DNA of 64,000 nt, from assembly GCA_937141935.1 (NCBI GenBank), contig CAKZQS010000002.1, positions 1 through 64,000 of the forward strand, written 5' to 3'. Numbering within the stretch: the first letter of the stretch is position 1; each line of letters begins with the position of its first letter. The position numbers and the translations under genes are program-made. This DNA is from an uncultured Ectothiorhodospiraceae bacterium (GTDB taxonomy: Bacteria; Pseudomonadota; Gammaproteobacteria; Nevskiales; Oceanococcaceae). The notes beneath the pieces were generated by a model. That model was given only the letters and a program-made list of their open reading frames with translations. It made no database searches and was not told where the DNA came from. This document shows positions 42,031 through 56,512 of the stretch, one piece after another.

Positions 42031-43392
42031 CTAGGGCAGCGCGCCGCGGAACTGCCGCAGCGCCGCGTTGTAGGCGCCGGCGCGGTAATCCTTGGTGTCG
42101 TTGGTGTACTTGTAGGCCTCGTCTATCGCCGCGCGCATGCGCGTGGAGCGGTTGCCGCTGACCTTGCCCGCGCGGTCCAGCGTCAAGAAGATCGCCTCCA
42201 GCGCCATCGTGGCCTGCTCGGCCAGGTTGTAGTCGGCGCTGGCCAGGGCCTGCTGGCTGACGGCCTCCAGCAGCGCCCAGGCCTCGGCTTCGCTGTAGCT
42301 GCGACCGGCCAGGCTGGCCTCCAGGTCGCCGGCCTGCGCGGCGAGGTTGCCCGCCTGCGTCTGCAGCGCATCGACGCTGCGCTGCGAGGCCGCATGCAGC
42401 TCGCGCAGGCCGCTGCCCCAGGCATTGGCGGCGCGCTCGTCGAGCTGGCGCAGCAGCGTGTGCACCAGCAGCAGGTTCACGCCGTGCAGCCGGACCCGGC
42501 CGGGCGCCAGGCCCGGGGCGGGCGTGCGGTCCCAGCGCGTGTCCGTCATTTCGTGGTGGCAGGCGTAGCAGTCGAAGAAGACCAGCTCCGGGAAGGTGCC
42601 GTCGCGCAGACGCGGGCCCGCCAGTTCTTCGAGGTAGCGGCGCGCCGCCACCAGCTGGCCGTCTGCCCAGGTCTGCAGCGAGCTGCGGATGCCCTTGCGC
42701 GCGGCGTAGTCGGCGTCGAGGTCGTGGTGGGCCGGCTCGATGGCCGTGAAGGTGTCGAGTTCGAAGCCCAGCGGCGGGTGGCCGGCGCCCATGATCTCGT
42801 GGTCGATGGGGTGGTCCGGCCCGCCGAGGTGGCAGCTCAGGCACATGCGCGCGCGGGCGGCGGGCTCCTCAGTGGGGTAGAGGCCGGCGGCGAGGTTGTC
42901 GGCGTGCGTGGCGCCCCGCTCGACGTGGCTCTCCAGCCAGCGCTCGCTGCCGCCGTGACAGGCCTCGCAGCCCACGCCGTCGCTGAGGCGAAAGCGGCGC
43001 CCGCGCTGGGCCTCAGGCACGAAGTCGCTATGGCAGCTCAGACAGCGCGGCGACTGGTGCGGCGTCAGCCCCAGCAGCTCGCCCATGCGCCGCGATTCGG
43101 CGCTGAGCAGGGTCTTGTAGGCCTGCGAGTGGCGATCCTCGCGGGTCCAGATGTAGTACTCGTTCTGCAGGATCGGCGAGTCCTGGTGCGGCGTCGCCGC
43201 GCCATGGCAGGCGGCGCCGGCGCAGGTGGCGACGCCCTCGTGCACCTGGCCATCGGTATAGGGCAGGGCGGGCAGGGCAAGCGCCACGGCCGGCGCCAGC
43301 AGGGCGGCTGCCAGCATGGTGCCTGCCACACGTAGCGTCGCTCTGAGCCTGCGGGCGAGCCCGGGCTCCCCCTGCGCGCGGAATCGCTCCAT
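42031..43392 (-). CDS. Periplasmic pentahaem cytochrome c (cytochrome c554-like family)
   Basis: 453 residues with a signal peptide (LAAALLAPAVALA). Five c-haem sites: CAGAACH (a CX4CH variant) near residue 57, then CLSCH, CEACH, CLSCH and CYACH. Between them are the family-typical QNEYYIWTREDRHSQAY, DGVGCEACHGG and HEIMGAGHPPLGFELDTF. The last about 180 residues are haem-free helices (ELHAASQRSVDALQTQAGNL, DEAYKYTNDTKDYRAGAYN). GGGAAAGAG precedes the ATG. Such proteins shuttle electrons in the periplasm. It is divergent from the flavoprotein-led redox series across 122 bases, so the two transcripts probably share a regulatory region and function. Confidence 0.9.
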   Translation of the reverse strand: MERFRAQGEPGLARRLRATLRVAGTMLAAALLAPAVALALPALPYTDGQVHEGVATCAGAACHGAATPHQDSPILQNEYYIWTREDRHSQAYKTLLSAESRRMGELLGLTPHQSPRCLSCHSDFVPEAQRGRRFRLSDGVGCEACHGGSERWLESHVERGATHADNLAAGLYPTEEPAARARMCLSCHLGGPDHPIDHEIMGAGHPPLGFELDTFTAIEPAHHDLDADYAARKGIRSSLQTWADGQLVAARRYLEELAGPRLRDGTFPELVFFDCYACHHEMTDTRWDRTPAPGLAPGRVRLHGVNLLLVHTLLRQLDERAANAWGSGLRELHAASQRSVDALQTQAGNLAAQAGDLEASLAGRSYSEAEAWALLEAVSQQALASADYNLAEQATMALEAIFLTLDRAGKVSGNRSTRMRAAIDEAYKYTNDTKDYRAGAYNAALRQFRGALP

Positions 43393-43514
43393 CTCTTTCC
43401 CTCGGACCCGGCGTGGCCCCCAGCATAGCGGCAGCGCGGCCCGCGCGACAGGCGGCGGTTGCGGATGCCGGGGTGCGGGGCTAGGCTGAGCCGGTCTGCC
43501 GACAGGGGGTCAAG

Positions 43515-45935
43515 GTGGCGGAAATTTACGAGGTCGCGGTCGTCGGCTCGGGGCCGGGGGGCATGAGTGCCGCGGCGCGGGCGGCCGAAAGCGGCATGTC
43601 GCATGTGCTGCTCGAGGCCGAGCCGCATCTGTCGAACACGATCTTTCGCTACCAGAAGGGCAAGCACGTGATGGCCGAGCCCACGGTGCTGCCGCTGCGT
43701 GCGCCGGTGGGCTTCGAGGCCGGCAAGCGCGAGGCCATCCTGGACGTGTGGAATCAGGGCGTGGCCGCGCTCCAGGTCAACGTCCGCCACGGCGCCGAAG
43801 TCACGGCCATCGAAGGCGGCCGCGGCGACTTCACTCTGACCCTCAAATCCGGCGACAGCGTGCGCGCCAAGCACGTGGTGCTGGGCATCGGCGTGCAGGG
43901 CAACATCCGCAAGCTGGGCGTCGACGGACAAGACCTGGAGCAGGTGCAATACCAGCTCGACGACCCGGATGCCTATGGCGGCGAGACCATCCTGATCGTC
44001 GGCGCCGGCGATGCCGCCATCGAGAACGCGCTGGCGCTGGCCCATGCCGGCAATACCGTGTCCATCGTCAACCGGCGCGACGAATTTACCCGCGCCAAGG
44101 ACGGCAACAACTCCGCGGTGCTGGCCGCCATCGAGGACGGCACGCTGGGCTGTTATTACGAATCCACGCCGCAGGTGGTCGAGGCGCTGCCCGCCGGCCA
44201 CGCCAGCGGCAAGCCGCTGCGCTTCGTGCTGAACACGGCCGAGGGCGAGGCCGAAGTCTTCTGTGACCGCATCATCGCCCGCCTGGGGGCCACCCCGCCG
44301 CGGCGCTTCGTCGAATCCTGCGGCATCGAGTTCCCCTCGGCCGACCCGGCCGCCGTGCCGGCGGTGTCGCCGCAGTACGAATCCAATGTGCCGGGGCTGT
44401 ACATCATCGGCGCGCTGGCCGGCTACCCGCTGATCAAGCAGGCGATGAACCAGGGCTATGAGGTCATCGAGTTCATCGCCGGGCGCGAGGTCAAGCCGGC
44501 CGACGAGCCACTGCTGGAAAGCAAGTTCCAGACGATTCCCTACGGCTTTTCGGTCGACGAGAACCTGGATTTCGTGCAGCAGGTCATCCCGATCCTGGAG
44601 CCGCTGACGACGCTGCAGCTGCGCGAGTTCATGCTCGACAGCCACGTGCGCGCGCCGGCCGCCGGCGAGGTGATCTTCGCGCTCAACGACTACACCAACA
44701 GCTTCTATTCGATCCTGGCCGGCGAGGTCGAGATCCAGGTGGACCCCGAGCAGCCGCACAAGAAGGTGACGCTGGGCGCGGGCCAGTTCTTCGGTGAGAT
44801 GAGCCTGATCTCCGGGCGTCGGCGCAGCGCCACGGTGCGCGCCAAGGGCGAAGGCCTGCTGCTGATCGAAACGCCGCGGCGCTCGATGAACAAGCTGATC
44901 CAGTCGGTGGATGCGGTGCGCCGCGTCGTCGACCAGACCTTCATCCTGCGCGCCATCCAGAGCCAGATCGCCCCCGGCGCCAGCGCCGATGACCTGGCCG
45001 ACGTGCTGCAGGCCAGCACGCTGGAGCACTACAAGCCCGGCGAGACGCTGTTCGCCGAAGGCGATGCCGGCGATGCCTTCTACGTCATCCGCTCGGGCTC
45101 GGTCACCGTGTCGCGCGACATCGGCGGCCGCAACACCCCCATCGCCTACGTCGCCGCGGGCAACTACGTCGGCGAGATGGCGCTGGTCTCGGACATGCCG
45201 CGCATGGCCACCGTCACCGCCGCCGTGGCCTGCGACGCGCTGCGCGTCGAAGGCGAGGCCTTCAAGGGGCTGATGGCGCGCAACCCCGGCGTGCGCGAGC
45301 GGGTCGAGGCCATCTACAAGGAGCGCCTGCTGGCGAATGCGCAGGCCGAAAGCCGCAGCCGCGACGGCTCGATGATCGCCTTTCTGGTCAGCCAGGGCCT
45401 GGGCGAGGCCACCGATGTGTTGCTGATCGACGAGTCGCTGTGCGTGCGCTGCGACCACTGCGAGAAGGCCTGCGCCAGCACCCATGGCAACGTCTCGCGG
45501 CTGAACCGCGAGGCCGGGCCGACCTTCGCCAGCCTGCACGTGCCGACCTCCTGCCGGCATTGCGAGCACCCGCACTGCATGAAGGACTGCCCGCCGGACG
45601 CGATCCACCGCGCGCCCAATGGCGAGGTCTTCATCAACGACTCCTGCATCGGCTGCGGCAACTGCGAGCGCAACTGCCCCTATGGCGTGATCCAGATGGG
45701 CGCGGTGACCGAGGACCGGCCCAAGCTGTGGACCTGGCTGCTGACCGGCGCCGGCCTGGCGCCCGGCACCTCGGTGCCTTATGACAAGGGCGCGGGCGTG
45801 GCCAAGAAGGCGGTCAAGTGCGACATGTGCAAGGACCTCGCCGGCGGCCCCGCCTGCGTACGCGCCTGCCCCACCGGCGCCGCGCTGCGCATGAGCCCGG
45901 AAGAGTTCATGGAACTCGCGGCGGACCGCAGCTAG
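43515..45935 (+). CDS. NAD(P)H-type flavoprotein fused to two cNMP-binding domains and a four-cluster ferredoxin
   Basis: 806 residues from a GTG after AGGGGGTCAAG. Residues 1-330: thioredoxin-reductase-like two-dinucleotide fold with VVGSGPGGMSAA (FAD) and IVGAGDAAIENALALA (NAD(P)), without a redox CxxC. About 355-480 and 490-610: two cyclic-nucleotide-binding domains, each with an intact phosphate cassette (FGEMSLISGRRRSATVRA; VGEMALVSDMPRMATVTA). About 630-790: HybA/DmsB-like ferredoxin with CVRCDHCEKAC, CRHCEHPHCMKDCP, CIGCGNCERNCP and CDMCKDLAGGPACVRACP, sixteen cysteines for four clusters. No signal peptide, so cytoplasmic. It probably moves electrons between a pyridine nucleotide and the membrane protein encoded three bases downstream, under cyclic-nucleotide control. 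Confidence 0.9.
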   Translation: MAEIYEVAVVGSGPGGMSAAARAAESGMSHVLLEAEPHLSNTIFRYQKGKHVMAEPTVLPLRAPVGFEAGKREAILDVWNQGVAALQVNVRHGAEVTAIEGGRGDFTLTLKSGDSVRAKHVVLGIGVQGNIRKLGVDGQDLEQVQYQLDDPDAYGGETILIVGAGDAAIENALALAHAGNTVSIVNRRDEFTRAKDGNNSAVLAAIEDGTLGCYYESTPQVVEALPAGHASGKPLRFVLNTAEGEAEVFCDRIIARLGATPPRRFVESCGIEFPSADPAAVPAVSPQYESNVPGLYIIGALAGYPLIKQAMNQGYEVIEFIAGREVKPADEPLLESKFQTIPYGFSVDENLDFVQQVIPILEPLTTLQLREFMLDSHVRAPAAGEVIFALNDYTNSFYSILAGEVEIQVDPEQPHKKVTLGAGQFFGEMSLISGRRRSATVRAKGEGLLLIETPRRSMNKLIQSVDAVRRVVDQTFILRAIQSQIAPGASADDLADVLQASTLEHYKPGETLFAEGDAGDAFYVIRSGSVTVSRDIGGRNTPIAYVAAGNYVGEMALVSDMPRMATVTAAVACDALRVEGEAFKGLMARNPGVRERVEAIYKERLLANAQAESRSRDGSMIAFLVSQGLGEATDVLLIDESLCVRCDHCEKACASTHGNVSRLNREAGPTFASLHVPTSCRHCEHPHCMKDCPPDAIHRAPNGEVFINDSCIGCGNCERNCPYGVIQMGAVTEDRPKLWTWLLTGAGLAPGTSVPYDKGAGVAKKAVKCDMCKDLAGGPACVRACPTGAALRMSPEEFMELAADRS

Positions 45936-45938
45936 CCC

Positions 45939-46883
45939 ATGGCGCTGCACGAATCCTTTCTCAGCCATGCCGGGGGGCGCTGGCTCAAGCTGGGCCTGCT
46001 GCTGATCCTGGCCAGCATCGCCGCCTATGCCTGGCATGACCCGGCGGCCGGGCCCAACGGCGGCACCTGGCTGGGCTACACGCTGGGCACCATCGGCGCG
46101 CTGCTGATCGTGTGGCTGACGCTGCTGGGCGTGCGCAAGCGCAGCTATCGCTCGAACCTGGGCACGGTCAAGGGCTGGACCTCGGCGCACGTGTGGCTGG
46201 GCCTGGCGCTGATCGTGGTCGGCACGCTGCACACCGGCTGGCAGTTCGGGCTGAACATCCACACGCTGGCCTGGCTGCTGATGATGCTGGTCATCGTGTC
46301 CGGCATCTGGGGCGTGGTCAGCTATGTGCGTTACCCGACGCAGATCACCGCCAACCGCGGTGCCATCCCGGCCCAGGAGATGCTGCGCGAGGTGGCCGAG
46401 CTGGATCGCCAGCTGCTGCTGCTGGCCGCGGAGCTGGGCCGGGAAACCCACGAGCGCACGCTGGCCTCGATCAACCGAACCCGCATTGGCGGCGGCTTCT
46501 GGCGCCAGGTGCTGGGCGTCCGCCAGGGCCAGGCGCCGGCCGAGGGCCTGATCAGCCGGCTGCGCGAAGAGCTGAACAAGCCCGCCTTCGCCGGCTCGGC
46601 GCCGCAGATGGGCCGCGGCGCGGGCGACGGCGGCGACAGCGGCCAGACGATGATGTTCATGGCCAGCGCCTTCGTGTCCGCCGAACAGGACGCCAAGCAA
46701 AAGGAGACGCGGCGCAAGCTGCTCGATGTGTTGTCACGCAAGAAGGCGCTGGTGACCCAGCTCAACGAGGACATCACCCGCCGGGCGCGCATGAGCGTCT
46801 GGCTGTACCTGCACGTGCCGCTGACGATCGGCCTGCTGGCCGCGCTGCTCGCGCATATCCTCTCCGTGTTCCTCTACTGGTAG
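45939..46883 (+). CDS. Cytochrome b-like integral membrane protein of the redox series
   Basis: 314 residues, five predicted membrane helices: four in residues about 15-135 and one at the C-terminus (LHVPLTIGLLAALLAHILSVFLYW). Histidines placed as in dihaem cytochrome b: SAHVWLG, GTLHTGW, NIHTLAW, YLHVPL and LLAHIL. A hydrophilic segment of about 140 residues, partly coiled-coil (EMLREVAELDRQLLLLAAELG), separates helices 4 and 5. No named family recognised. Between the polyferredoxin upstream and FHA-decahaem protein downstream (gaps 3 and 4 bases), it is well placed to pass electrons across or into the inner membrane, probably with quinone. Confidence 0.78.
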   Translation: MALHESFLSHAGGRWLKLGLLLILASIAAYAWHDPAAGPNGGTWLGYTLGTIGALLIVWLTLLGVRKRSYRSNLGTVKGWTSAHVWLGLALIVVGTLHTGWQFGLNIHTLAWLLMMLVIVSGIWGVVSYVRYPTQITANRGAIPAQEMLREVAELDRQLLLLAAELGRETHERTLASINRTRIGGGFWRQVLGVRQGQAPAEGLISRLREELNKPAFAGSAPQMGRGAGDGGDSGQTMMFMASAFVSAEQDAKQKETRRKLLDVLSRKKALVTQLNEDITRRARMSVWLYLHVPLTIGLLAALLAHILSVFLYW

Positions 46884-46887
46884 CGCC

Positions 46888-48603
46888 ATGGCCATCGTGA
46901 TTCGCCAGCTGCGCGGCAGCGGGAACAACCAGACGATCAGCGACAAGCGCATCGACCGGCCACAGGTGACCATCGGCCGTGGCGCCGACCAGGACATCCT
47001 GGTCAACGACCCGCGGGTGGCCTGGGAGCATGCCGAGGTGCGTGCCGGTGGCCTGGGCGGCCACAACATCGAGGTGCTGCGCGAAGCCGGGCCGGTGCTG
47101 CTCAACGGCGCGCCTTCGCGTGGCAGCAAGTTGCGCGATGGCGACGTGGTCACGCTGGGCGGCAGCGAGATCGTGTTTCGCCTCTTCGAGGGCCAGGCCT
47201 ACCTGGAGGTGCGCGAGGCGCCGCGGGTCAAGGATGCCCAGGCGGCGCAGCTGCGGGCGCAGTCCAAGCTGTCGCTGGAGGAGGTCGGCGTCAGCCGCCG
47301 CCGCTGGAGCTGGATCCTGTTCGTGCTGCTGCTGCTGATCACGCTGCTGCTGCCGCTGGCCAGCCGCTTCCTGCCGGTGGTCAGCGCGCAGATCCGCCAC
47401 GCGCCGCTGGTGCCCAGCGATGCGGTGTGGCTGTCGGGGCCGATGTCGGCCGCGCATGAAAGCTTTGGCCGCGACTGCGAGGCCTGCCACCTCGAGGCCT
47501 TCGAGATGACGCCGGACCGCGCCTGCCTGGCCTGCCACGCCACCGTGGCGCATCACGATGACGACGTCGCCCTGCTGGAAAGCAGCGGCATCGAGGACTA
47601 CCGCTGCGCCGACTGCCACCACGAGCACGACGGCGACGAGGGCCTGGTGCTGGCCCACCCCAGCCTCTGCGTGGACTGCCACGCGCTGCCGGGCAGCAAG
47701 ATGCCGGGCAGCGGACTGCAGCCGGTCAGCGACTTCGATGGCGGCCACCCGCAGTTTTCGCCGACCGTCTGGCGGCTGGACCCGCAGGGCCAGCGCGAGG
47801 CCGTGTCGCTGGCGCTGCAGCCGGGCCTGCGCGAGCCTTCGGCGCTGATCTTCCCGCACGATCTGCACCTGGACGCCGATGGCGTCGAGGACCGCGCCGG
47901 CGACGCGCAGCTGCTGGATTGCCAGTCCTGCCACGAATACCAGGCCGGCGAGGTCAGCTTCCAGGCGGTGGACTTCGAGCAGCACTGCCAGTACTGCCAC
48001 AGCCTGGAGTTCGAACCCAGCGACCCGGGCCGCGAGGTCCCGCATGGCAACACGCAGGCCGTGCTCGACGACCTGCGCGGCTATTACGCCCGCCAGGTCC
48101 TGCAGGGCACCGAGCAGCCGCCGCTGACCCTGCCGCGCGGCCCGCGCGGGCGGCAGCGCAGCGTGGTGCTGGACGAGGCCGAACGCAACACGCTGCTGCG
48201 CAAGGCCGACGGGCTGGCGCGCGACAAGATCGACGAGACCATCCGCGTGCGCCTGTGTGCCAAGTGCCACACGATCGGCCCGGCGCCGCAGGAGGGCGGG
48301 GCGGACTGGGATGTCGAGCCCTTCCGCCAGCGCGCGGTGTGGTTCGAGGCGGCGCGCTTTGACCATGGGCACCACCAGACCGAGGGCTGCGAGAGCTGCC
48401 ACGCGGCCTCGACCTCGGAGTCGGCCGACGAGGTGCTGCTGCCCGGCATCGACGATTGCACCGGCTGCCATGCCGGCAATGCCAGCCGACGCGGGCGTAT
48501 CCGTTCGCTTTGCATCGACTGTCACGGTTTCCATCTGGCCGGGGAGGCGCTGATGCACGGCGCGGCCCGGGCCAGCAGCGGGGGTTCAGCGGCGGTGCCC
48601 TAG
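46888..48603 (+). CDS. FHA domain-transmembrane-decahaem cytochrome c
   Basis: 571 residues. Residues 1-110: forkhead-associated domain (VTIGRGADQDILVNDPRVAWEHAEV, then LNGAPSRGSKLRDGDVVTLGG); the usual Ser of the SxxH motif is replaced by Ala (AWEH). One membrane helix at about 135-157 (SWILFVLLLLITLLLPLA). The rest is periplasmic with ten CXXCH sites: CEACH, CLACH, CADCH, CVDCH, CQSCH, CQYCH, CAKCH, CESCH, CTGCH and CIDCH. FHA domains bind phosphothreonine; with a cytosolic FHA and periplasmic haems the protein would join kinase signalling to periplasmic electron flow. Starts four bases after the cytochrome b-like gene. Confidence 0.92.
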   Translation: MAIVIRQLRGSGNNQTISDKRIDRPQVTIGRGADQDILVNDPRVAWEHAEVRAGGLGGHNIEVLREAGPVLLNGAPSRGSKLRDGDVVTLGGSEIVFRLFEGQAYLEVREAPRVKDAQAAQLRAQSKLSLEEVGVSRRRWSWILFVLLLLITLLLPLASRFLPVVSAQIRHAPLVPSDAVWLSGPMSAAHESFGRDCEACHLEAFEMTPDRACLACHATVAHHDDDVALLESSGIEDYRCADCHHEHDGDEGLVLAHPSLCVDCHALPGSKMPGSGLQPVSDFDGGHPQFSPTVWRLDPQGQREAVSLALQPGLREPSALIFPHDLHLDADGVEDRAGDAQLLDCQSCHEYQAGEVSFQAVDFEQHCQYCHSLEFEPSDPGREVPHGNTQAVLDDLRGYYARQVLQGTEQPPLTLPRGPRGRQRSVVLDEAERNTLLRKADGLARDKIDETIRVRLCAKCHTIGPAPQEGGADWDVEPFRQRAVWFEAARFDHGHHQTEGCESCHAASTSESADEVLLPGIDDCTGCHAGNASRRGRIRSLCIDCHGFHLAGEALMHGAARASSGGSAAVP

Positions 48604-48629
48604 GGCCGCCCACGCCAGGGGGGATGACA

Positions 48630-50720
48630 ATGCACACAGCGCTACGCTCGACGGCCGGGGCCATCGTGCTCGCCTTGCTGCTCGCCGCTTGCGGCGAGGG
48701 GGACCGCCCGGGGGCGGCGGGGATCGGCGAGGGCGCCGCGCCCTGCGCCGGCAACTGCGCCACCGACCTGGCGGCCGCGGCCGCGCGGCTCAGCGTCGCC
48801 GAGGTCGAGACGGTTCTGGCCCAGGCCGCCAACGAGGCACAGGCCCAGGGCGTGGCGGCAACCATCGCCGTCGTCGACCGCGTCGGCAATGTGCTGGCGG
48901 TCTACCGCATGGATGGCGCCTCGCCGGACATGCGGGTCGATTCGCTGCGCGCCGAAAACGTTAACACCGGCCTTGAGAACCTCACCGTGCCCAGCGCGCT
49001 GGGGGCGATCAGCAAGGCGGTCACCGGCGCCTATCTGTCCTCGGAGGGCAATGCCTTCACCACGCGCACCGCAGGGCAGATCGTGCAGGAGCACTTCAAT
49101 CCCGGCGAGCTGAACCAGGTCTCCGGGCCGCTGTTCGGCGTGCAGTTCAGCCAGCTCGCCTGCTCGGACCTGGTGCGCCGCGAGGCCGACGCCCGGGTGG
49201 GGCCCAAGCGCAGCCCGCTGGGCCTGGCGGCCGACCCCGGCGGCCTGCCGCTGTACAAGAACGGCACGCCGGTGGGCGGCGTGGGCGTGATGGCCGACGG
49301 CATCTACGGCCTGGATCTGGTGCTGACCGATACCGATCGCGACCTGGATGAGCTGATCGCCGTCGCGGCCAGCTTTGGTTTCGCCGCGCCGCGGGACCGC
49401 CGTGGCGACCGCATCACCGTCGAGGGCAAGACCTTCCGCTTCAGCGATGTCGACTTCGGCGACACGCTGACAGCCGGCACCGCCGCGCCGGCCTTGGGCG
49501 CCATCAATGGCGAACTGCTGAGCATCCCCGGCTATACCGAGAACGCCGGCGGCGCGGTGCGCGCCGGCGTGGCCTTCGGCCGCGCGGCCTCCGGCTACCG
49601 CCCCAGCAACGACCCCCGTTTTGCCGGGCTGGAGGCCTTTGAGCTGGTCGAGCCCGACGGCAGCCGCCGCTATCCGCCGCGCGCCGCCGCCGACAACCCG
49701 GCCGGCGCCGCGGCGCTGAGCGAGGCCGAGGTGGCGGTGCTGCTGCGCAATGCGCTGCGCGTCGCGCGCCAGGGCCGCGCACAAATCCGCCGGCCGCTGG
49801 GCAGCCAGATCCACGTGACCGCCAGCGTGGTCGACAGTCGCGGCGCGGTGCTGGGCGTGCTGCGCACGCACGACGGCCCGATCTTTGGCACCGATGTGTC
49901 GCTGCAGAAGGCGCGGACCGCGGTGTTTTTCTCCTCCGCCGATGCCGGCCAGCGGCTCAGCGACGGCGGCGCCGTCAGCTACCTGGACATCGCCCGCGAC
50001 GCCAATGGCGACCTGGCCATCGACCGCCGTGCCCCGGCGCTGGCCTTCGCCGACTATGTGCAGCGCACCCGCGACCTCTTCGGCCCGACGGCGCTGACCG
50101 GCACCCACGCCTTCGCCGACCGCTCGGGCGGCAATCTGTCGCGGCCCTTCTTCCCCGACGGCTTGCTCAGCGCGCCGCCGGGCCCCTTCAGCAAACCCTT
50201 CGCCGACTGGAGCCCCTTCTCGACCGGGCTGCAGCTGGACATGGTCTACGAGCGCATCATCCAGCACGTCGCCTTCACGCTGGGGCTGGTGCCGGACGTC
50301 AGCGACAGTGGCTGCGCCGGCGGCTTCCCGGCCGGCACCGACGCGGCGCCGCTGTTTTTCGGCACCACGATTCCCGAGGGCCTGGACAATGGCCTGCAGA
50401 TCTTCCCCGGCTCGGTGCCGATCTACCGCGGCGGCGTGCTGGTGGGGGGCATCGGCATCTCCGGTGACGGCGTGGACCAGGACGACATGATTGCCTTCCT
50501 GGGCACGCATAACGCCGGCCTGGAGCTGGGCGGGGCGCTGGGCAATGCGCCGCCGGAGATCCGCGCCGACCGGCTCGAGGCGCGCGGCGTGCGCCTGCGC
50601 TATGTGCAGTGTCCCCAGGCGCCGGGGGCGCCCAACCCGCCACCGGACGTGGCCGGGCCCCGCTTCCCCGAAACGCCCTTCCCGGGCTCGGACCAACAGC
50701 GCGTTTGCGAGGGGCTGTGA
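48630..50720 (+). CDS. Lipoprotein with two HbpS/GlcG-type (haem-binding) domains
   Basis: 696 residues from the second of two close ATGs, which has the better spacing from AGGGGGG (48624 is the alternative). Lipobox LLLAAC. Two copies of the HbpS-like fold: about 50-260 (VETVLAQAANEAQAQG, TIAVVDRVGNVLAVYRMDG, GGVGVMADGIYG) and about 365-640 (LLRNALRVARQGR, TASVVDSRGAVLGVLRTHDG, GGIGISGDGVDQDD). HbpS proteins bind haem or cobalamin-like ligands and modulate redox sensing; GlcG members are uncharacterised. It follows the FHA-decahaem gene by 26 bases and overlaps none, and is predicted to sit in the periplasm facing the cytochromes. Confidence 0.8.
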   Translation: MHTALRSTAGAIVLALLLAACGEGDRPGAAGIGEGAAPCAGNCATDLAAAAARLSVAEVETVLAQAANEAQAQGVAATIAVVDRVGNVLAVYRMDGASPDMRVDSLRAENVNTGLENLTVPSALGAISKAVTGAYLSSEGNAFTTRTAGQIVQEHFNPGELNQVSGPLFGVQFSQLACSDLVRREADARVGPKRSPLGLAADPGGLPLYKNGTPVGGVGVMADGIYGLDLVLTDTDRDLDELIAVAASFGFAAPRDRRGDRITVEGKTFRFSDVDFGDTLTAGTAAPALGAINGELLSIPGYTENAGGAVRAGVAFGRAASGYRPSNDPRFAGLEAFELVEPDGSRRYPPRAAADNPAGAAALSEAEVAVLLRNALRVARQGRAQIRRPLGSQIHVTASVVDSRGAVLGVLRTHDGPIFGTDVSLQKARTAVFFSSADAGQRLSDGGAVSYLDIARDANGDLAIDRRAPALAFADYVQRTRDLFGPTALTGTHAFADRSGGNLSRPFFPDGLLSAPPGPFSKPFADWSPFSTGLQLDMVYERIIQHVAFTLGLVPDVSDSGCAGGFPAGTDAAPLFFGTTIPEGLDNGLQIFPGSVPIYRGGVLVGGIGISGDGVDQDDMIAFLGTHNAGLELGGALGNAPPEIRADRLEARGVRLRYVQCPQAPGAPNPPPDVAGPRFPETPFPGSDQQRVCEGL

Positions 50721-50721
50721 C

Positions 50722-52698
50722 ATGAACATGCAGCAACACACCCACGACGCCCGCGTGTCCGCCGCGGCCCTGCTTCTGACCACGACCCTGCTGGCTCCGG
50801 CGGCCTGGGCCGAGGGGTCCTCCGCCGCGTTTACGCTGGCGCTGCCGCCGGCCCCGCTGCTGCAGCTGGCGCAGGCCGGTGAGCTGGGCGAGGGCGAGCT
50901 GGCCCCGACGCAGGCCATCGACCGCCGCGCCCGCCGCCGCCGCGCGACCATCCGCGAGGAGGCCGAGCCCGCCAGCGCGGAACCGGCCGTCGAGGAGGCC
51001 CGCGGCCGGCGCCGCAGCCGCTCCACCGAGGCCGCGCCCGGCACGGCCAGCAAGCCGATCCCGCGCGACCACTTCGACCCGAACCGCCGGGCCGGTCTGC
51101 GCCCGGTGCCGGCGCCGGGGGCGCAGGCGAATTACGTGAAGGTCGAAGACCGCTGGAAGCTGACCGAACAGCTCGGCATCCTGAACTTCCCCTGGTACGA
51201 CCCCTACAACTTCAACGTCATCAAGGGCGACCGGCCGGTGCACGGGGAGGACTGGTTCTTCCAGCTCAACCTGATCTCGGACACCATTTTCGAGCCGCGC
51301 AGCCTGCCGGTCCCGGTGGGCGCGCAGACCTCGGAGCGGCCGGGCAGCGTGGGCGTGTTCGGCGCCGATGACCAGTTCATCTTCAACCAGAATCTGATCA
51401 TCGGGCTGGTCTATGTGAAGGGCAACACCACCTTCAAGCCGCCGGATTATGAGTTCCGTCTGACGCCGGTCATCAACTACAACTACGTCGACACGGCCGA
51501 ACGCCGGTTGCTGCGCATCGACCCGCGCGAGGGCGACAGCCGCACCGATTCGCAGGTGCTGCTGCAGGAGGCCTTCTTCGACTACCACATCCGCAACGTG
51601 TCGGATCGCTACGATTTCGACAGCTTCCGCATCGGCATCCAGCCCTTCTCGACGGATTTTCGCGGCTTTCTGTTCCAGGACATCCAGCTTGGGGCGCGGC
51701 TGTTCGGCACCCGCAACAACAACATCTTCCAGTACAACCTGGCCTGGTTCCGGCGGCTGGAAAAAGACATCAACTCCGGCTTGAACGACATCCGCCAGGA
51801 CATCCGCAAGGATGATGTCTTCATCGCCAACGTCTATTGGCAGGACTTCCCGCAGCTGGGCTTCTTCTCCCAGGCCACGGTGGTCTACAACCGCAACCGC
51901 GAGGGCGACGAGCCCAGCGCCTTCGACGAGAACGGCTTCATCGCCCGCCCGGCCTCGCTGGGCCTGGAGCAGCCACGCAACTACGACGTGGTGTACCTGG
52001 GTTACAACGGCGACGGCCACTTCGGCCGGCTGAACCTGACGGTGTCGGCCTACTGGGCCGTCGGCGACGAGGACCGGCAAAGCTTCGTCGACCGCGAGGG
52101 CGACATCTCGGCCGGCTTCTTCGCCGCCGAGGCCGGGCGCGACTACAGCTGGGCGCGGATGCGCTTTTCGGCCGTCTACGCCACGCCGGACACCGACCCC
52201 TTCGACGACAAGGCCACCGGCTTTGATGCGATCTTCGAAAACCCGATCATCGCCGGCTTCGACACCAACTACTGGACCCACCAGCCGGTGCCGCTGGTGG
52301 CCGGCGGCGGGGTCTCGATCACGCCGCGCAACGGCATGTTGAACAGCCTGCGCTCGTCCAAGGAGCGCGGCCAGTCGAACTTCACCAACCCCGGCACCGT
52401 GCTGCTGGGCGTTGGGGCCGACCTGGACCTGAGCGTCGAGAGCCGGGTGTCCTTCAATGCCAATTACCTGCGCTTTGCCGACAGCACGGTGCTGGAGGTC
52501 GCGCGCAACCAATCGGACATCGACGAGGAGATCGGCCTGGATCTGTCGACCGCGTGGATCTGGCGGCCCTTTGCCAGCCAGAACGTGGTCTGGCGGCTGT
52601 CCGGCGCCGTCTTGCTGCCGGGGAAGGGCTTCGAGGACCTGTTCCCGGACGAGAGCTACCAGTACTCGATCTTCGGCAACCTCGTGCTGACCTTCTAG
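50722..52698 (+). CDS. Outer-membrane beta-barrel protein of the redox series
   Basis: 658 residues with a signal peptide (LLLTTTLLAPAAWA). Residues 30-130 are a disordered, Arg/Glu-rich linker. From about 135 on, alternating amphipathic strands with aromatic girdles (WFFQLNLISDTIFEP, FIFNQNLIIGLVYVKG, NIFQYNLAWFRRL, GRLNLTVSAYWAVG) run to a C-terminal Phe (IFGNLVLTF), the BAM recognition signal. No CXXCH. It starts one base after the HbpS-like gene stop and precedes the decahaem-propeller gene by 19 bases. A porin-like sleeve for a cytochrome, as MtrB is for MtrA, is an attractive but unproven reading; a substrate channel is the alternative. Confidence 0.78.
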   Translation: MNMQQHTHDARVSAAALLLTTTLLAPAAWAEGSSAAFTLALPPAPLLQLAQAGELGEGELAPTQAIDRRARRRRATIREEAEPASAEPAVEEARGRRRSRSTEAAPGTASKPIPRDHFDPNRRAGLRPVPAPGAQANYVKVEDRWKLTEQLGILNFPWYDPYNFNVIKGDRPVHGEDWFFQLNLISDTIFEPRSLPVPVGAQTSERPGSVGVFGADDQFIFNQNLIIGLVYVKGNTTFKPPDYEFRLTPVINYNYVDTAERRLLRIDPREGDSRTDSQVLLQEAFFDYHIRNVSDRYDFDSFRIGIQPFSTDFRGFLFQDIQLGARLFGTRNNNIFQYNLAWFRRLEKDINSGLNDIRQDIRKDDVFIANVYWQDFPQLGFFSQATVVYNRNREGDEPSAFDENGFIARPASLGLEQPRNYDVVYLGYNGDGHFGRLNLTVSAYWAVGDEDRQSFVDREGDISAGFFAAEAGRDYSWARMRFSAVYATPDTDPFDDKATGFDAIFENPIIAGFDTNYWTHQPVPLVAGGGVSITPRNGMLNSLRSSKERGQSNFTNPGTVLLGVGADLDLSVESRVSFNANYLRFADSTVLEVARNQSDIDEEIGLDLSTAWIWRPFASQNVVWRLSGAVLLPGKGFEDLFPDESYQYSIFGNLVLTF

Positions 52699-52717
52699 CC
52701 GCAGGCAGGAGATAACC

Positions 52718-55700
52718 ATGCGAAACGCAATCCTTGCTGCCGGTGCCCTGCTGCTGGCCTTCACGGGCGCCCCGGCGCTGGCCGCCGGCGGCGAGAAGCC
52801 GGTCGAACGCGACTACGTCACCGCGGACTTCGCGCCGCGCCAGCAAAGCTGGGAAGAGGCGCGCTCCAAGAGCGCCGGCTGCGTGTCCTGCCACGTCGAG
52901 ACCGACGCCAAGACCATGCACGACAACCCCGGCGTGGTGCTGGGCTGCACCGACTGTCACGGCGGCAATGCCGATGTCTGGCAGCCGGCGAACGCGCAGT
53001 TCAAGGATGCCGACTACATGGGCGCGCTGCGCCAGGCGCACGTGCTGCCGCGCTACCCCGAGACCTGGAATTTCCCCTCCAGCGCCAACCCCAAGCACAG
53101 CTACACGCTGCTCAACCGCGAGTCGCCGGAGTTCCTGCGTTTCGTCAACCCGAGCGACTACCGGATCATGGATGAGGCCTGCGGGGCCTGCCACCAGCCG
53201 ATTATCGACAAGGTGCGTACCTCGCTGATGACCACCTCGGCGATGCTCTGGGGCGGCGCCAGCTACAACAACGGCATCCTGCCCTACAAGCGCTACGTCC
53301 TCGGCGAGGCCTACACCCGCGAGGGCGAGGCCGCGGCCATCGAGGCCCCGGTGGCGGTGGACGACAACATGCGCGACAAGGGCATCCTGGAGATGCTGCA
53401 CCCGCTGCCGGCCTGGGAGGTCACGCCGCCGGCCGATGTCTTCCGCGTGTTCGAGCGCGGCGGGCGCAACCTGATCAACCTCTTCCCCGAGACCGGCCTG
53501 CCCAACAGCCTGGGCCAGCAGCAGCGGCTGGAGGAGCCGGGCCGGCCCGATCTGCGGCAGTCCAACCGGGGCCCGGCCACCGGCAACCGCATCGCCGTGC
53601 CGGTGCTCAACATCCACAAGACCCGGCTGAACGACCCCTTCGCCTGGTTCCTGGGCACCAATGACAACCCGGGTGATTTTCGCACCTCCGGCTGCGGCGC
53701 CTGTCATGTGGTCTACGCCAACGACCGCGAGCCCAAGCATTCCGGGCCCTATGCCGAGTTCGGCCACACCGGCCTGACGCAGACGGCCGACCCGACCATC
53801 GACCGCGAGGAGCCCGGCCACCCGTTGCAGCACCGCTTCACCCGGGCCATCCCCACGGCGCAGTGCATGGTCTGCCATATGCACCAGCCGAACATCTTCC
53901 TGAACAGCTTTCTGGGCTACACCATGTGGGACTACGAGTCCGACGCGCCCGCGATGTGGCCGGAAGAACAGCGCTACCCGACGGACGCCGAGATCCACGA
54001 GATCAACAAGCGCAACCCGGAAGAGGCGGCGATACGCGGCAAATGGGGCGACCCGGACTTCGTCAAGCAGGTCTCCGAGCTGAACCCCGAACTCAACGAC
54101 ACCCAGTTCGCCGATTACCATGGCCACGGCTGGAACTTCCGCGCCATCTTCAAGCGCAATCGCGAGGGCGCGCTGCTCGACGCCGACGGCAACATCGTCA
54201 GCGACGACGACCCGGAGAAGTTCGACAAGGCCGTGCACATGGCCTCGATCCACGCCGACAAGGGCATGCACTGCGTCGATTGCCACTTCGAGCAGGATGC
54301 GCACGGCAATGGCCACATCTATGGCGAGGTGGCGCAGGCCATCGAGATCGAGTGCATCGATTGCCACGGCACCGCCGACCGCTACCCGACGCTGAAGACC
54401 TCCGGCCCGGCCTCGCCGCCCGGCGGCAATGACCTGTCGACCATCCGCAACCAGGACGGCAGCCTGCGTTTTGAATGGGTCGGCGGCAAGCTGATCCAGC
54501 GCAGCGCCGTGACCCCGGGGCTGGAGTGGGAGCTGAGCCTGGTGCGCGACTCGGTGCAGCCCGGCTCGGGGGATTACAACGCCAAGGCGGCGCGCGCCAA
54601 GCTGATGGCGGCCGACCCAGCGCGGCAGAACTGGGGCCCGGAGGTCGAATTCGAGGACCGCGCCCATGCCGACGACGAGATGCTCTGCGTGACCTGCCAC
54701 ACCTCCTGGACGACCTCCTGCGGCGGCTGCCACCTGCCGATCCAGGCCAACTGGAAGACCGAGCGCAACCACTACGAAGGCGGCGAGACGCGCAACTACG
54801 CCACCTACAACCCGCAGGTCGCCCGCGACCAGATCTTCATGCTGGGCAAGCACGGACCGGCCAAGGGCAACCGCACGGCACCGGTGCGCTCCTCCTCGGC
54901 ACTGGTGCTGTCCTCGCGCAATGCGAACCGCGAGCTGATCTACATCCAGCAGCCGCCGGTGGCCGCCAGTGGTTATTCCTCGCAGGCCTTCGCGCCGCAC
55001 TTCCCGCACACCGTGCGCAAGACCGAGACCAAGACCTGCAGCGACTGCCACCTCTCGGCACAGGGCGACAACAACGCGATCATGGCCCAGCTGCTGGGCC
55101 ATGGCACCAACTTCATCAACTTCCTGGGCTACTACGCCTATGCCGGCGGCGAGGACGGCATCACCGCCGTGCAGGTCACCGAGTGGGATGAGCCGCAGTC
55201 GGTGCTGGGCAGTTATTTGCACCGCTATGCCTACCCCGACTGGTATGCGGCGCACCAGGAGCGCGGCGGCAAGCTGGACACCGCGCACACCATGGACGCG
55301 CCGGATGCTGTGCGCTGCCTGCAGCTGCGTGGCGAATACCTCTACGCGGCGCAGGGCCGCGGCGGCTTCGAGGTCTATGACGTGGCCTCGATCGCCAACA
55401 AGGGCTTCTCGCAGCGCATCATCAGCGCGCCCTTCTCGCCGCTGGGGCATGACACGCGCGTGGACAGCGAGAACGCGACCTGCATGGCGCTGCCCACCAC
55501 GCAGCCCATCCACCCGGATCGCAACGAAGGCACCCTGATGCGCGAGATCAACCTCGAGCAGCCCTTCCACCCCATCTACGACTACGCGCTGATCAGCGAC
55601 AGCGTCGAGGGGCTGATCCTGGTCGACGTCAACACGCTCTCGGACGGCGAGCCGCGCAACAACCAGTTGCACCGCGCGCTGACCTGGAACGCCGACGGCG

Positions 55701-56512
55701 TGCTCGACGGCGCCCGGCACCTGACCATCGCCGGCCATCACGTCTACGTCACCACGCCCGAGCGCATCGTGGTGCTGGATCTGGACCAGCCGCTGCAGCC
55801 CCGCGTGGCCGCCACGATCCCGGTACGCGACGGCCGCGCCACGGCGCTGCAGTTCCGCTACCTGTTCATCAGCGACGGCGAGGGCTTCAAGGTGGCCGAT
55901 GTCACCTGGCCCGAAGCGCCGCGGCTGATCGACGGGGCCCGGGTCGCCTTGCAAGATGCCCAGCGCATCTATGTGGCGCGTACCTACGCCTACGTGGCCG
56001 CGGGCGAGCAGGGCCTGGCCATCATCAACGTCACCAGCCCGGAGGCGCCGCAGCTCTACTCGCTGTACAACGCCGAGGGCGCGCTCAGCGACGCGCGCGA
56101 CGTGGTGGTGGCCACCACCAATGCCTCGCTCTTCGCCTACGTGGCCGATGGCCGCCATGGGCTGAAGGTGCTGCAGCTGACCTCGCCGGAAAGCCAGCCG
56201 CGCTTCTATGGCTTCTCGCCGGAGCCCCGGCCGCAGTTGATCGCCACGCGGGCCACCGCCGCGCCCTTGCTGGCCTTGTCCAAGGGCCTGGATCGCGACC
56301 GCGCGGTCGACGAGACCGGCCACCAGATGGCCGTGTTCGGGCGCATCGGCTCGCGCCCCTTCAACTATGCCGAGCAGCGCGCCTTTTACCTCGACGATGA
56401 CGGTGAGCCCTGGTTCGTCTTTTACGAGCCGCGCGGCGGGGCGGCCGAGACCCAAGGCGCCGAGACGACTCGCGCCGGGGGCGGCGACGGCGCGGGCGCC
56501 GGCATGCCCTAG
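52718..56512 (+). CDS. Secreted decahaem cytochrome c with C-terminal LVIVD-type beta-propeller
   Basis: 1264 residues, signal peptide (LAAGALLLAFTGAPALA). Ten CXXCH sites in residues about 60-785: CVSCH, CTDCH, CGACH, CGACH, CMVCH, CVDCH, CIDCH, CVTCH, CGGCH and CSDCH. Residues about 855-1190 are a propeller of LVIVD-like blades (RYLFISDGEGFKVADV, YAYVAAGEQGLAIINV, FAYVADGRHGLKVLQL). The segment between has the cytochrome-family stretch FAPHFPHTVRKTETKTCSDCH. Such proteins are extracellular or periplasmic; the propeller may bind a partner or substrate. GCAGGAG precedes the ATG. Last cytochrome of the series. Confidence 0.9.
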   Translation: MRNAILAAGALLLAFTGAPALAAGGEKPVERDYVTADFAPRQQSWEEARSKSAGCVSCHVETDAKTMHDNPGVVLGCTDCHGGNADVWQPANAQFKDADYMGALRQAHVLPRYPETWNFPSSANPKHSYTLLNRESPEFLRFVNPSDYRIMDEACGACHQPIIDKVRTSLMTTSAMLWGGASYNNGILPYKRYVLGEAYTREGEAAAIEAPVAVDDNMRDKGILEMLHPLPAWEVTPPADVFRVFERGGRNLINLFPETGLPNSLGQQQRLEEPGRPDLRQSNRGPATGNRIAVPVLNIHKTRLNDPFAWFLGTNDNPGDFRTSGCGACHVVYANDREPKHSGPYAEFGHTGLTQTADPTIDREEPGHPLQHRFTRAIPTAQCMVCHMHQPNIFLNSFLGYTMWDYESDAPAMWPEEQRYPTDAEIHEINKRNPEEAAIRGKWGDPDFVKQVSELNPELNDTQFADYHGHGWNFRAIFKRNREGALLDADGNIVSDDDPEKFDKAVHMASIHADKGMHCVDCHFEQDAHGNGHIYGEVAQAIEIECIDCHGTADRYPTLKTSGPASPPGGNDLSTIRNQDGSLRFEWVGGKLIQRSAVTPGLEWELSLVRDSVQPGSGDYNAKAARAKLMAADPARQNWGPEVEFEDRAHADDEMLCVTCHTSWTTSCGGCHLPIQANWKTERNHYEGGETRNYATYNPQVARDQIFMLGKHGPAKGNRTAPVRSSSALVLSSRNANRELIYIQQPPVAASGYSSQAFAPHFPHTVRKTETKTCSDCHLSAQGDNNAIMAQLLGHGTNFINFLGYYAYAGGEDGITAVQVTEWDEPQSVLGSYLHRYAYPDWYAAHQERGGKLDTAHTMDAPDAVRCLQLRGEYLYAAQGRGGFEVYDVASIANKGFSQRIISAPFSPLGHDTRVDSENATCMALPTTQPIHPDRNEGTLMREINLEQPFHPIYDYALISDSVEGLILVDVNTLSDGEPRNNQLHRALTWNADGVLDGARHLTIAGHHVYVTTPERIVVLDLDQPLQPRVAATIPVRDGRATALQFRYLFISDGEGFKVADVTWPEAPRLIDGARVALQDAQRIYVARTYAYVAAGEQGLAIINVTSPEAPQLYSLYNAEGALSDARDVVVATTNASLFAYVADGRHGLKVLQLTSPESQPRFYGFSPEPRPQLIATRATAAPLLALSKGLDRDRAVDETGHQMAVFGRIGSRPFNYAEQRAFYLDDDGEPWFVFYEPRGGAAETQGAETTRAGGGDGAGAGMP

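Follow-up and report, generated by a model that had tools for sequence, protein, structure and literature searches.

The stretch analysed here, referred to as the window, comprises 64,000 nucleotides of contig 2 of an uncultured Ectothiorhodospiraceae genome (3.57 Mb, 98% complete). It carries at positions 42031–56512 a cluster of seven genes, P1 to P7, which, as judged from sequence, is a real conduit type, widespread among Proteobacteria, within the predicted PCC3/PCC4 porin-cytochrome group. The core of the cluster is a trio, P2-P3-P4, composed of a flavoprotein-ferredoxin fusion with cyclic nucleotide (cNMP)-binding domains, a five-helix inner membrane protein (IMP) and a membrane-anchored decahaem protein. 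This trio is an inner-membrane module that occurs with three outer modules, namely the P5-P6-P7 set of the window, a PCC4-type set and MtrCAB. The predicted new parts are the NAD(P)H-cNMP-ferredoxin fusion (P2), the FHA-anchored decahaem protein (P4), the HbpS lipoprotein (P5) and the decahaem-propeller protein (P7).

An earlier annotation made from the letters alone (hereafter, the original prediction) proved correct in gene content, haem counts and spacings; the refinements concern the start codons of P5 (48624) and P6 (50722) and the fifth haem site of P1, which is CX4CH. The gaps between the plus-strand genes P2 to P7 are 3, 4, 20, 1 and 19 bases, and P1 and P2 are divergently oriented with 122 bases between them (Table 1). 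Homologues at 30–71% identity, arranged in the same gene order in other genomes, place the cluster beyond chance. It had also been stated that no described system combines these parts. This holds for the gene combination, which was not found described in the open-access literature searched (supplementary tables lay outside the search, for example Supplementary Table 6 of He et al. (2017) with the IMP-porin cluster of L. cholodnii SP-6), but not for the framework, as P3 fits the PCC3/PCC4 IMP and a PCC4-like locus has a related gene order.

The PCC3 and PCC4 conduits were predicted in 2017 with an IMP whose partner was left open in the sections describing them (PMC5566968). That IMP has about 300 amino acids and five transmembrane helices, with WX3HX13H motifs on TM3 and TM5 and an SGXXG motif on TM4 (PMC5566968). 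P3 agrees in size, helices and motifs, and could be aligned with the IMPs of PCC3-like (L144–L147, L172) and PCC4-like (L171) loci, which were assigned by gene content against the published descriptions; against the PCC3-like IMPs alone hhalign returned 99.5% (E 2e-22). The AlphaFold2 (AF2) model of the 314-residue protein (mean pLDDT 84.8) has long helices at transmembrane positions (residues 7–33, 44–66, 77–99, 107–140 and 252–312), and histidines 84, 98, 108, 292 and 306 are invariant. Both WX3HX13H motifs are present in 55 of 60 P3 members; four of the others (L067, L072, L073, L084) reach a contig end and L130 is without one. No Pfam or NCBIfam model matched P3 at E 0.01. Since P3 carries every motif of the PCC3/PCC4 IMP, the cluster would be a variant within these predicted conduits.

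Conservation was followed in 85 genomes of the window genome's order, to which Solimonas belongs, and 369 of its class (the window's own genome being included in both), as well as in 80 loci, the best of at least 500 confirmed P2 relatives identified among named genomes by a P2 alignment scan. The order-level and 80-locus sets are not independent, because at least nine of the 80 are the same contigs (for example, L071 is L059). With P4 as query, 39 of the 85 order genomes gave a match at E 0.001; 28 have a true homologue (own included) and the other 11 match only through the FHA-like stretch. P2, P3 and P4 are all present in 27 of 27 other order-level loci, and all seven genes in 18 of these. 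Within the class, P2 (E 1e-80) and P3 (E <1e-80) occur in the identical 17 genomes, and P7 (E 1e-30) in 13, every one belonging to the same 17; 13 further genomes have weak P3 relatives only (E 1e-10 to 1e-17). The four genomes with P2 and P3 and no P7 match comprise one that carries a PCC4-type outer module (G190), two in which P5 and P6 are followed by the contig end (G312, G464) and one whose contig stops 1.4 kb past P4 (G127). Across the phylum, P3 was matched at E 1e-6 in 17 of 398 genomes, 15 strongly (12 of them outside the class) and two distantly. Two of the 15 strong matches, both from a single genus outside the class, are P2-P3 fusions encoded by one frame of 1118 and 1123 amino acids, with P4 downstream. 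These fusions lie at L158:3850-7206 and L159:3052-6423, where P4 has nine CxxCH motifs and no outer module is seen in the stretch.

Clustering of open reading frames in the 80 loci recovered P2 in 80 (by design), P4 in 64, P3 in 59, P5 in 53, P7 in 51, P6 in 49 and P1 in 28, and the next commonest gene family in 8; these counts are lower bounds because many contigs are cut. Strains of Solimonas, Tahibacter, Duganella, Alcanivorax and Cognaticolwellia are among the carriers of P2. A permuted order, P4-P5-P6-P7-P1-P2, is found in some loci, mostly betaproteobacterial by title. A test of 16 such genomes, of which 13 show the permuted order and three have cut loci, detected P3 in every one; by its coordinates it lies directly before P4 in the four loci compared (L087, L092, L128, L132). 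Two copies of the trio genes were noted in L109 (G092 contig 116) and in G211 (contigs 12 and 14); in the latter a class III cyclase gene lies near the trio copy on each contig. Proteins of family c8 (for example L091:12649-13122 and L126:14945-15394), encoded between P4 and P5, are small (about 150 residues) and apparently exported. This family was seen in 8 loci, several alphaproteobacterial by title, and the one member scanned had no Pfam match.

The association of the trio with its outer modules varies. The P5-P6-P7 set forms an operon of its own in L160, L163 and L165, adjoining that of the trio and opposite in orientation. A PCC4-type outer module accompanies the same trio in L071 (Solimonas terrae), L048, L068, L072, L073, L075 and L152; these loci carry a barrel (c11), P1-type cytochromes and, except in L152 where it was out of view, a cytochrome with five CxxCH motifs (c14); no kinship was detectable between barrel c11 and P6. 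In a Gallionellales metagenome-assembled genome (MAG; RIFCSPLOWO2_02_FULL_59_110, L138), genes for MtrA, MtrB and MtrC begin 0.95 kb downstream of the trio (3.4e-79, 2.7e-110 and 1.2e-118, respectively, all above curated cut-offs). This mtrCAB set is discussed in PMC8805035, whose main text contains no mention of FHA or of cyclic nucleotide. On a P2 tree of 94 rows (FastTree, local support only), with the 22 rows lacking a known outer module excluded from the count, the outer type requires three changes, the minimum for three types being two, and Solimonas terrae is nested among window-type rows. The same tree places seven records (L072, L112, L097, L101, L113, L115, L123), whose titles give Klebsiella pneumoniae, Bordetella parapertussis or Mycobacteriaceae, among other environmental MAGs, and these names may be wrong.

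The original prediction had treated the genes as one functional unit and proposed a search for co-occurrence of the trio across genomes, with attention to whether barrel and propeller travel with it. Unity is borne out by the identical distribution of P2 and P3 in the class, by the P2-P3 fusion and by one MAG in which mtrCAB lies downstream of the trio; the 27 order-level loci add the co-occurrence of P4. Barrel and propeller accompany the trio in the 18 order-level loci with all seven genes; in some other loci another outer module, or none, is seen.

Table 1. Genes of the cluster and domains of P2, with positions in the window
Feature	Position	Strand	Basis
P1: exported pentahaem cytochrome, c554 family	42031-43392	-	Pfam Cytochrome_C554
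P2: cytoplasmic NAD(P)H flavoprotein-(cNMP)2-16-Cys ferredoxin (four [4Fe-4S]) fusion	43515-45935	+	Pfam Pyr_redox, two cNMP_binding, Fer4
P2, second cNMP-binding domain (residues 504-590)	45024-45284	+	PF00027
P2, polyferredoxin part (about residues 637-790)	45423-45884	+	Fer4 families
P3: candidate di-haem b protein of the inner membrane, five transmembrane helices, WX3HX13H twice and SGXXG once	45939-46883	+	
P4: cytoplasmic FHA-like domain, one transmembrane segment, periplasmic decahaem part	46888-48603	+	FHA, 10 CxxCH
P5: lipoprotein, two HbpS-like domains	48624-50720	+	likely start ATG 48624
P6: outer-membrane beta-barrel, 18-19 strands in model	50722-52698	+	AF2 model, Foldseek
P7: exported decahaem protein, C-terminal LVIVD beta-propeller	52718-56512	+	10 CxxCH, LVIVD repeat (Pfam)

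The cluster is preceded by housekeeping genes, among them infB and truB (both by Pfam) and pnp (read from sequence), and is followed by a polyhydroxybutyrate accumulation regulator. An open frame just 3' of P7 (window:56660-58324, plus strand) reads as a transmembrane segment with a right-handed beta-helix protein; it has no Pfam match, lies outside the conserved set and is possibly not a gene.

The cofactor and ligand residues of P2 are conserved. In the 82 sequences compared, the 16 cysteines for four [4Fe-4S] clusters are kept in all, and both dinucleotide-binding glycine motifs are kept. The named positions of the NRRxEFxR stretch, which resembles the NADPH motif of thioredoxin reductases, are kept in 75–82, except for the second arginine (36 of 82). 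The flavin part has no well-conserved cysteine (Cys 213, 250 and 269 occur in 63, 62 and 43 of the 82). A thioredoxin/YpdA-type disulfide reductase was considered for P2 and rejected, as the flavin part lacks a well-conserved redox cysteine and the YpdA model scored 113 bits against a cut-off of 340. Both cNMP cassettes have the Gly-Glu pair in 82 of 82 sequences and the arginine in 82 and 81 of 82. In L095, L099, L103, L105 and L122, P2 is preceded by a CHASE2-class III cyclase gene together with a TPR gene and, in most cases, one for FecR; the cyclase set is also seen in L067 (one gene intervening), L100 (cut) and L154 (between P2 and P3). Cyclic nucleotide sensing, proposed at the outset, thus gains support from both conserved ligand cassettes and from nucleotide cyclases near the cluster in several lineages. 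A class III cyclase model (c9) is matched in 11 of the 80 loci, in some as far as 8 kb away, where the density of cyclase genes (45 of family PF00211 in 12 genomes) would predict 0.8. The 12 genomes include ones chosen for the linkage, which raises this expectation, and four of them (G845–G848) have only two PF00211 genes each.

Phospho-peptide sensing by P4 was likewise proposed from the window. P4 has a single hydrophobic stretch at residues 138–167, preceded by the FHA domain. In FHA domains that read phosphothreonine, the binding loops contain Arg, Ser, His and Asn, with Ser contacting the phosphothreonine. Among 52 aligned P4 sequences, Arg is kept in 52, His in 48 and Asn in 48, with Arg, Ser/Thr and His together in only 3; Arg is lost in P4 of L058 and L060. 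P4 also gave a sub-threshold Pfam match to the cytoplasmic domain of YscD from type III secretion systems, which has an FHA-like fold and is not known to read phosphopeptides. Phosphopeptide sensing is doubtful because the Ser is mostly lost, and the YscD-like match likewise speaks against it. It is further weakened by the finding of no kinase among the 25 commonest of 118 families in 111 flanking proteins, the other 93 families lying outside this set. Docking is a likelier role for the FHA domain of P4 than phosphothreonine recognition. In L054 (also L025) the P4 homologue aligns only from about residue 128, and the FHA part is unmatched.

P1 has four CxxCH motifs and one CX4CH, a pattern shared by all 32 homologues that exceed 330 residues; P1 is likely a periplasmic shuttle, and is accessory in that it was not found in some clusters. 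P7 has 10 CxxCH motifs in 37 of 37 homologues longer than 1100 residues, and matches ExtM of Geobacter (NF040943) in part (6e-17, 61 bits against an 800-bit cut-off). Searches of PDB sequences with P7 and P1 returned nothing at E 0.01, and with P5 five weak chains of the HbpS/EfgA/GlcG kind. The AF2 model of P6 (mean pLDDT 66.9) is a barrel of 18–19 strands with its N-terminal 150 residues at low confidence; the closest Foldseek match is AlgE (TM-score by target 0.68), which informs barrel size and not function. From this model, a Cyc2-like or docking role for P6 appears as likely as an MtrB-like sheath.

With modest confidence, we read the seven genes as an NADPH-fed, cNMP-tuned electron conduit that crosses the envelope from the inner module to the outer membrane. 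P2 would pass electrons from NADPH through FAD to its four [4Fe-4S] clusters and dock on P3, whose two predicted b haems would carry them across the inner membrane to P4 with no quinone involved. P4, as a membrane-anchored periplasmic decahaem protein, would deliver them with the P1 shuttle to the exchangeable outer module, in which lipoprotein P5, barrel P6 and decahaem-propeller P7 would meet an acceptor outside the cell. Binding of cAMP or cGMP to P2 would gate or tune the flow. The whole would amount to a unit resembling an NADPH oxidase or ferric reductase joined to a porin-cytochrome conduit. Outward flow should be the easier direction because NADPH is low in potential and the membrane potential favours electrons leaving the negative interior. 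A more specific form of this proposal, in which export is quinone-independent and second-messenger-gated, the cAMP or cGMP of a neighbouring sensor cyclase switches P2, and aerobic heterotrophs shed reducing power via interchangeable conduits, is tentative and distinctly less probable.

Several observations weigh against the NADPH-fed conduit. P3 has no Foldseek match in the PDB at E 0.001, and its VIA-align rows against solved di-haem b folds gave values in the range stated for helical bundles; as no PDB fold is significant, haem binding by P3 is read from its motifs. The signal peptide of P7 is plain, so that P7 may remain periplasmic. The barrel of MtrB is wider than the P6 model, and the narrower P6 may be unable to enclose a decahaem wire. 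At L130, L142, L158, L159, L162, L166 and L168 the stretch shows neither the P5-P6-P7 set nor an outer module of PCC4 or Mtr type, and the trio may therefore act alone or with distant genes. With regard to gating, the cyclase-bearing loci are related, representing about five lineages, the 12 genomes behind the expected cyclase count were in part selected for such genes, and none of the eight PF00211 genes of the window genome falls inside the window. Finally, He et al. (2017) proposed that the IMP exchanges electrons with quinone (PMC5566968).

The flow could run inward, with P7 and P6 oxidising an external donor (Fe(II), Mn(II) or another cell) and P4 passing electrons through P3 to quinone or, with energy, to NAD(P)+. 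Conduits predicted for Fe(II)-oxidising bacteria contain IMPs of this type (PMC5566968). The trio is upstream of mtrCAB in the Gallionellales MAG and occurs in Sideroxydans, Gallionellaceae and Sulfurisoma MAGs (L142, L143, L130), with no outer module in the stretch. Electron transfer from a periplasmic c cytochrome through b haems to NADP+ would, however, be uphill and opposed by the membrane potential, and the named strains that bear P2 are presumably organotrophs, which leaves inward flow unlikely. The proposal of He et al. gives rise to a second alternative that we consider similarly improbable, in which P3 is a quinol- or quinone-active cytochrome b and P2 its regulatory or priming partner. 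Quinone activity was argued by analogy with the cytochromes b of bc1 and hydrogenase (PMC5566968), yet P2 and P3 share one distribution in the class, are fused in one genus, and have a counterpart in the Fer4-flavoprotein near the IMP in four of five PCC3-like loci. Least probable is an NADPH-driven envelope reductase for one substrate (for example one that serves to acquire haem or ferric iron), in which the HbpS lipoprotein would bind the substrate and the propeller would be the catalytic or binding unit: this would accord with the HbpS-like domains of P5 and its presence in 53 of 80 loci, with the AlgE-like P6 and with FecR, which precedes P2 in some loci and makes up 4 of the 111 neighbours scanned, but the same trio occurs with MtrCAB and PCC4-type modules with no HbpS protein in those stretches, and the FecR genes are part of the cyclase-TPR-FecR set and not of an iron transporter.

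Through the P2-P3 fusion and matching distribution, the IMP gains a cytoplasmic partner of the NAD(P)H/Fe-S kind and a model that can be put to the test. The occurrence of one inner module with MtrCAB and two other outer modules points to extracellular electron transfer assembled by module exchange. As the trio is found in 17 of the 369 class genomes and in others outside the class, including named cultured strains that we take to be aerobes, the model can be tested in isolates. Direct cNMP control of an electron conduit, if true, would be a new kind of regulation.

The cluster was compared with known and predicted systems. It shares with MtrCAB, MtoAB and PioAB the logic of a barrel with multihaem proteins; it is nonetheless not of the Mtr type named in the original prediction: none of the seven proteins reaches the cut-off for MtrA (TIGR03508), MtrB (TIGR03509/PF11854) or MtrC (TIGR03507), nor for NapC/NirT/NrfH, and the window genome has no PF11854 match. 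A cluster from Methylobacter (PMC13322032) was set aside as Mtr type, having a DmsE/MtrA decahaem protein and an MtrB/PioB barrel. Uet of Tenderia is likewise a predicted porin-multihaem conduit, and was rejected as an identity for the window as its gene set differs, with undecahaem, trihaem, tetrahaem and NHL proteins (PMC10734462). The MCA0424-0433 operon of M. capsulatus, with 58 CxxCH motifs and one barrel, was set beside the window by description only. The proposed path over a single membrane, from NADPH and FAD to two b haems held by HX13H pairs, resembles NADPH oxidases and ferric reductases, an analogy between HX13H motifs that He et al. (2017) drew for the IMP (PMC5566968); the window differs in its Fe-S relay and periplasmic multihaem acceptor, and P3 is without a Pfam match.

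The closest relatives are the PCC3 and PCC4 conduits. PCC3 is described as having giant multihaem proteins in the periplasm and outside the cell, with medians of 21 and 34 sites (PMC5566968), and the PCC3-like loci have weak P3 relatives by profile search beside cytochromes of 19–66 haems. They share with the window an IMP homologous to P3 and an adjoining multihaem gene, whereas the largest haem proteins of the window have 10 sites. A Fer4-flavoprotein lies near the IMP in L144 (two frames), L145, L146 and L172 (4.4 kb away), and was not seen in L147; in contrast to P2, those scanned had no cNMP domain among the families listed. This Fer4-pyridine-nucleotide flavoprotein is a possible electron partner of the IMP, and is not named in the sections of He et al. 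(2017) on these conduits. PCC4 has an Fe-S gene (PF13247) upstream of the IMP gene in subgroup II, and a porin with multihaem proteins of 4, 5 and 10 haem sites (PMC5566968). P2 matches PF13247 (8.5e-11) and is located directly upstream of P3, whereas the haem proteins of the window have four CxxCH with one CX4CH, 10 and 10 sites, and its barrel has no detectable kinship to that of L171 and its relatives. Locus L171 itself differs in having a separate FNR/2Fe-2S flavin reductase (read from sequence) and a barrel for which hhalign (4%) detected no kinship to P6, and neither HbpS lipoprotein nor decahaem-propeller is in its 9.1 kb contig. Within L171:1460-5544, the cNMP-ferredoxin protein has three cNMP stretches, and the N-terminus of the decahaem protein is Cys-rich with no FHA. 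PCC4 nevertheless resembles the window in its Fe-S protein upstream of a five-helix IMP with the same motifs, its decahaem protein and its c554-type cytochrome (4 CxxCH), and L171 matches P3 (BLAST 6e-14) and the cNMP-ferredoxin half of P2 (2e-44), with cNMP-ferredoxin protein, IMP and decahaem protein in the same order as P2-P3-P4.

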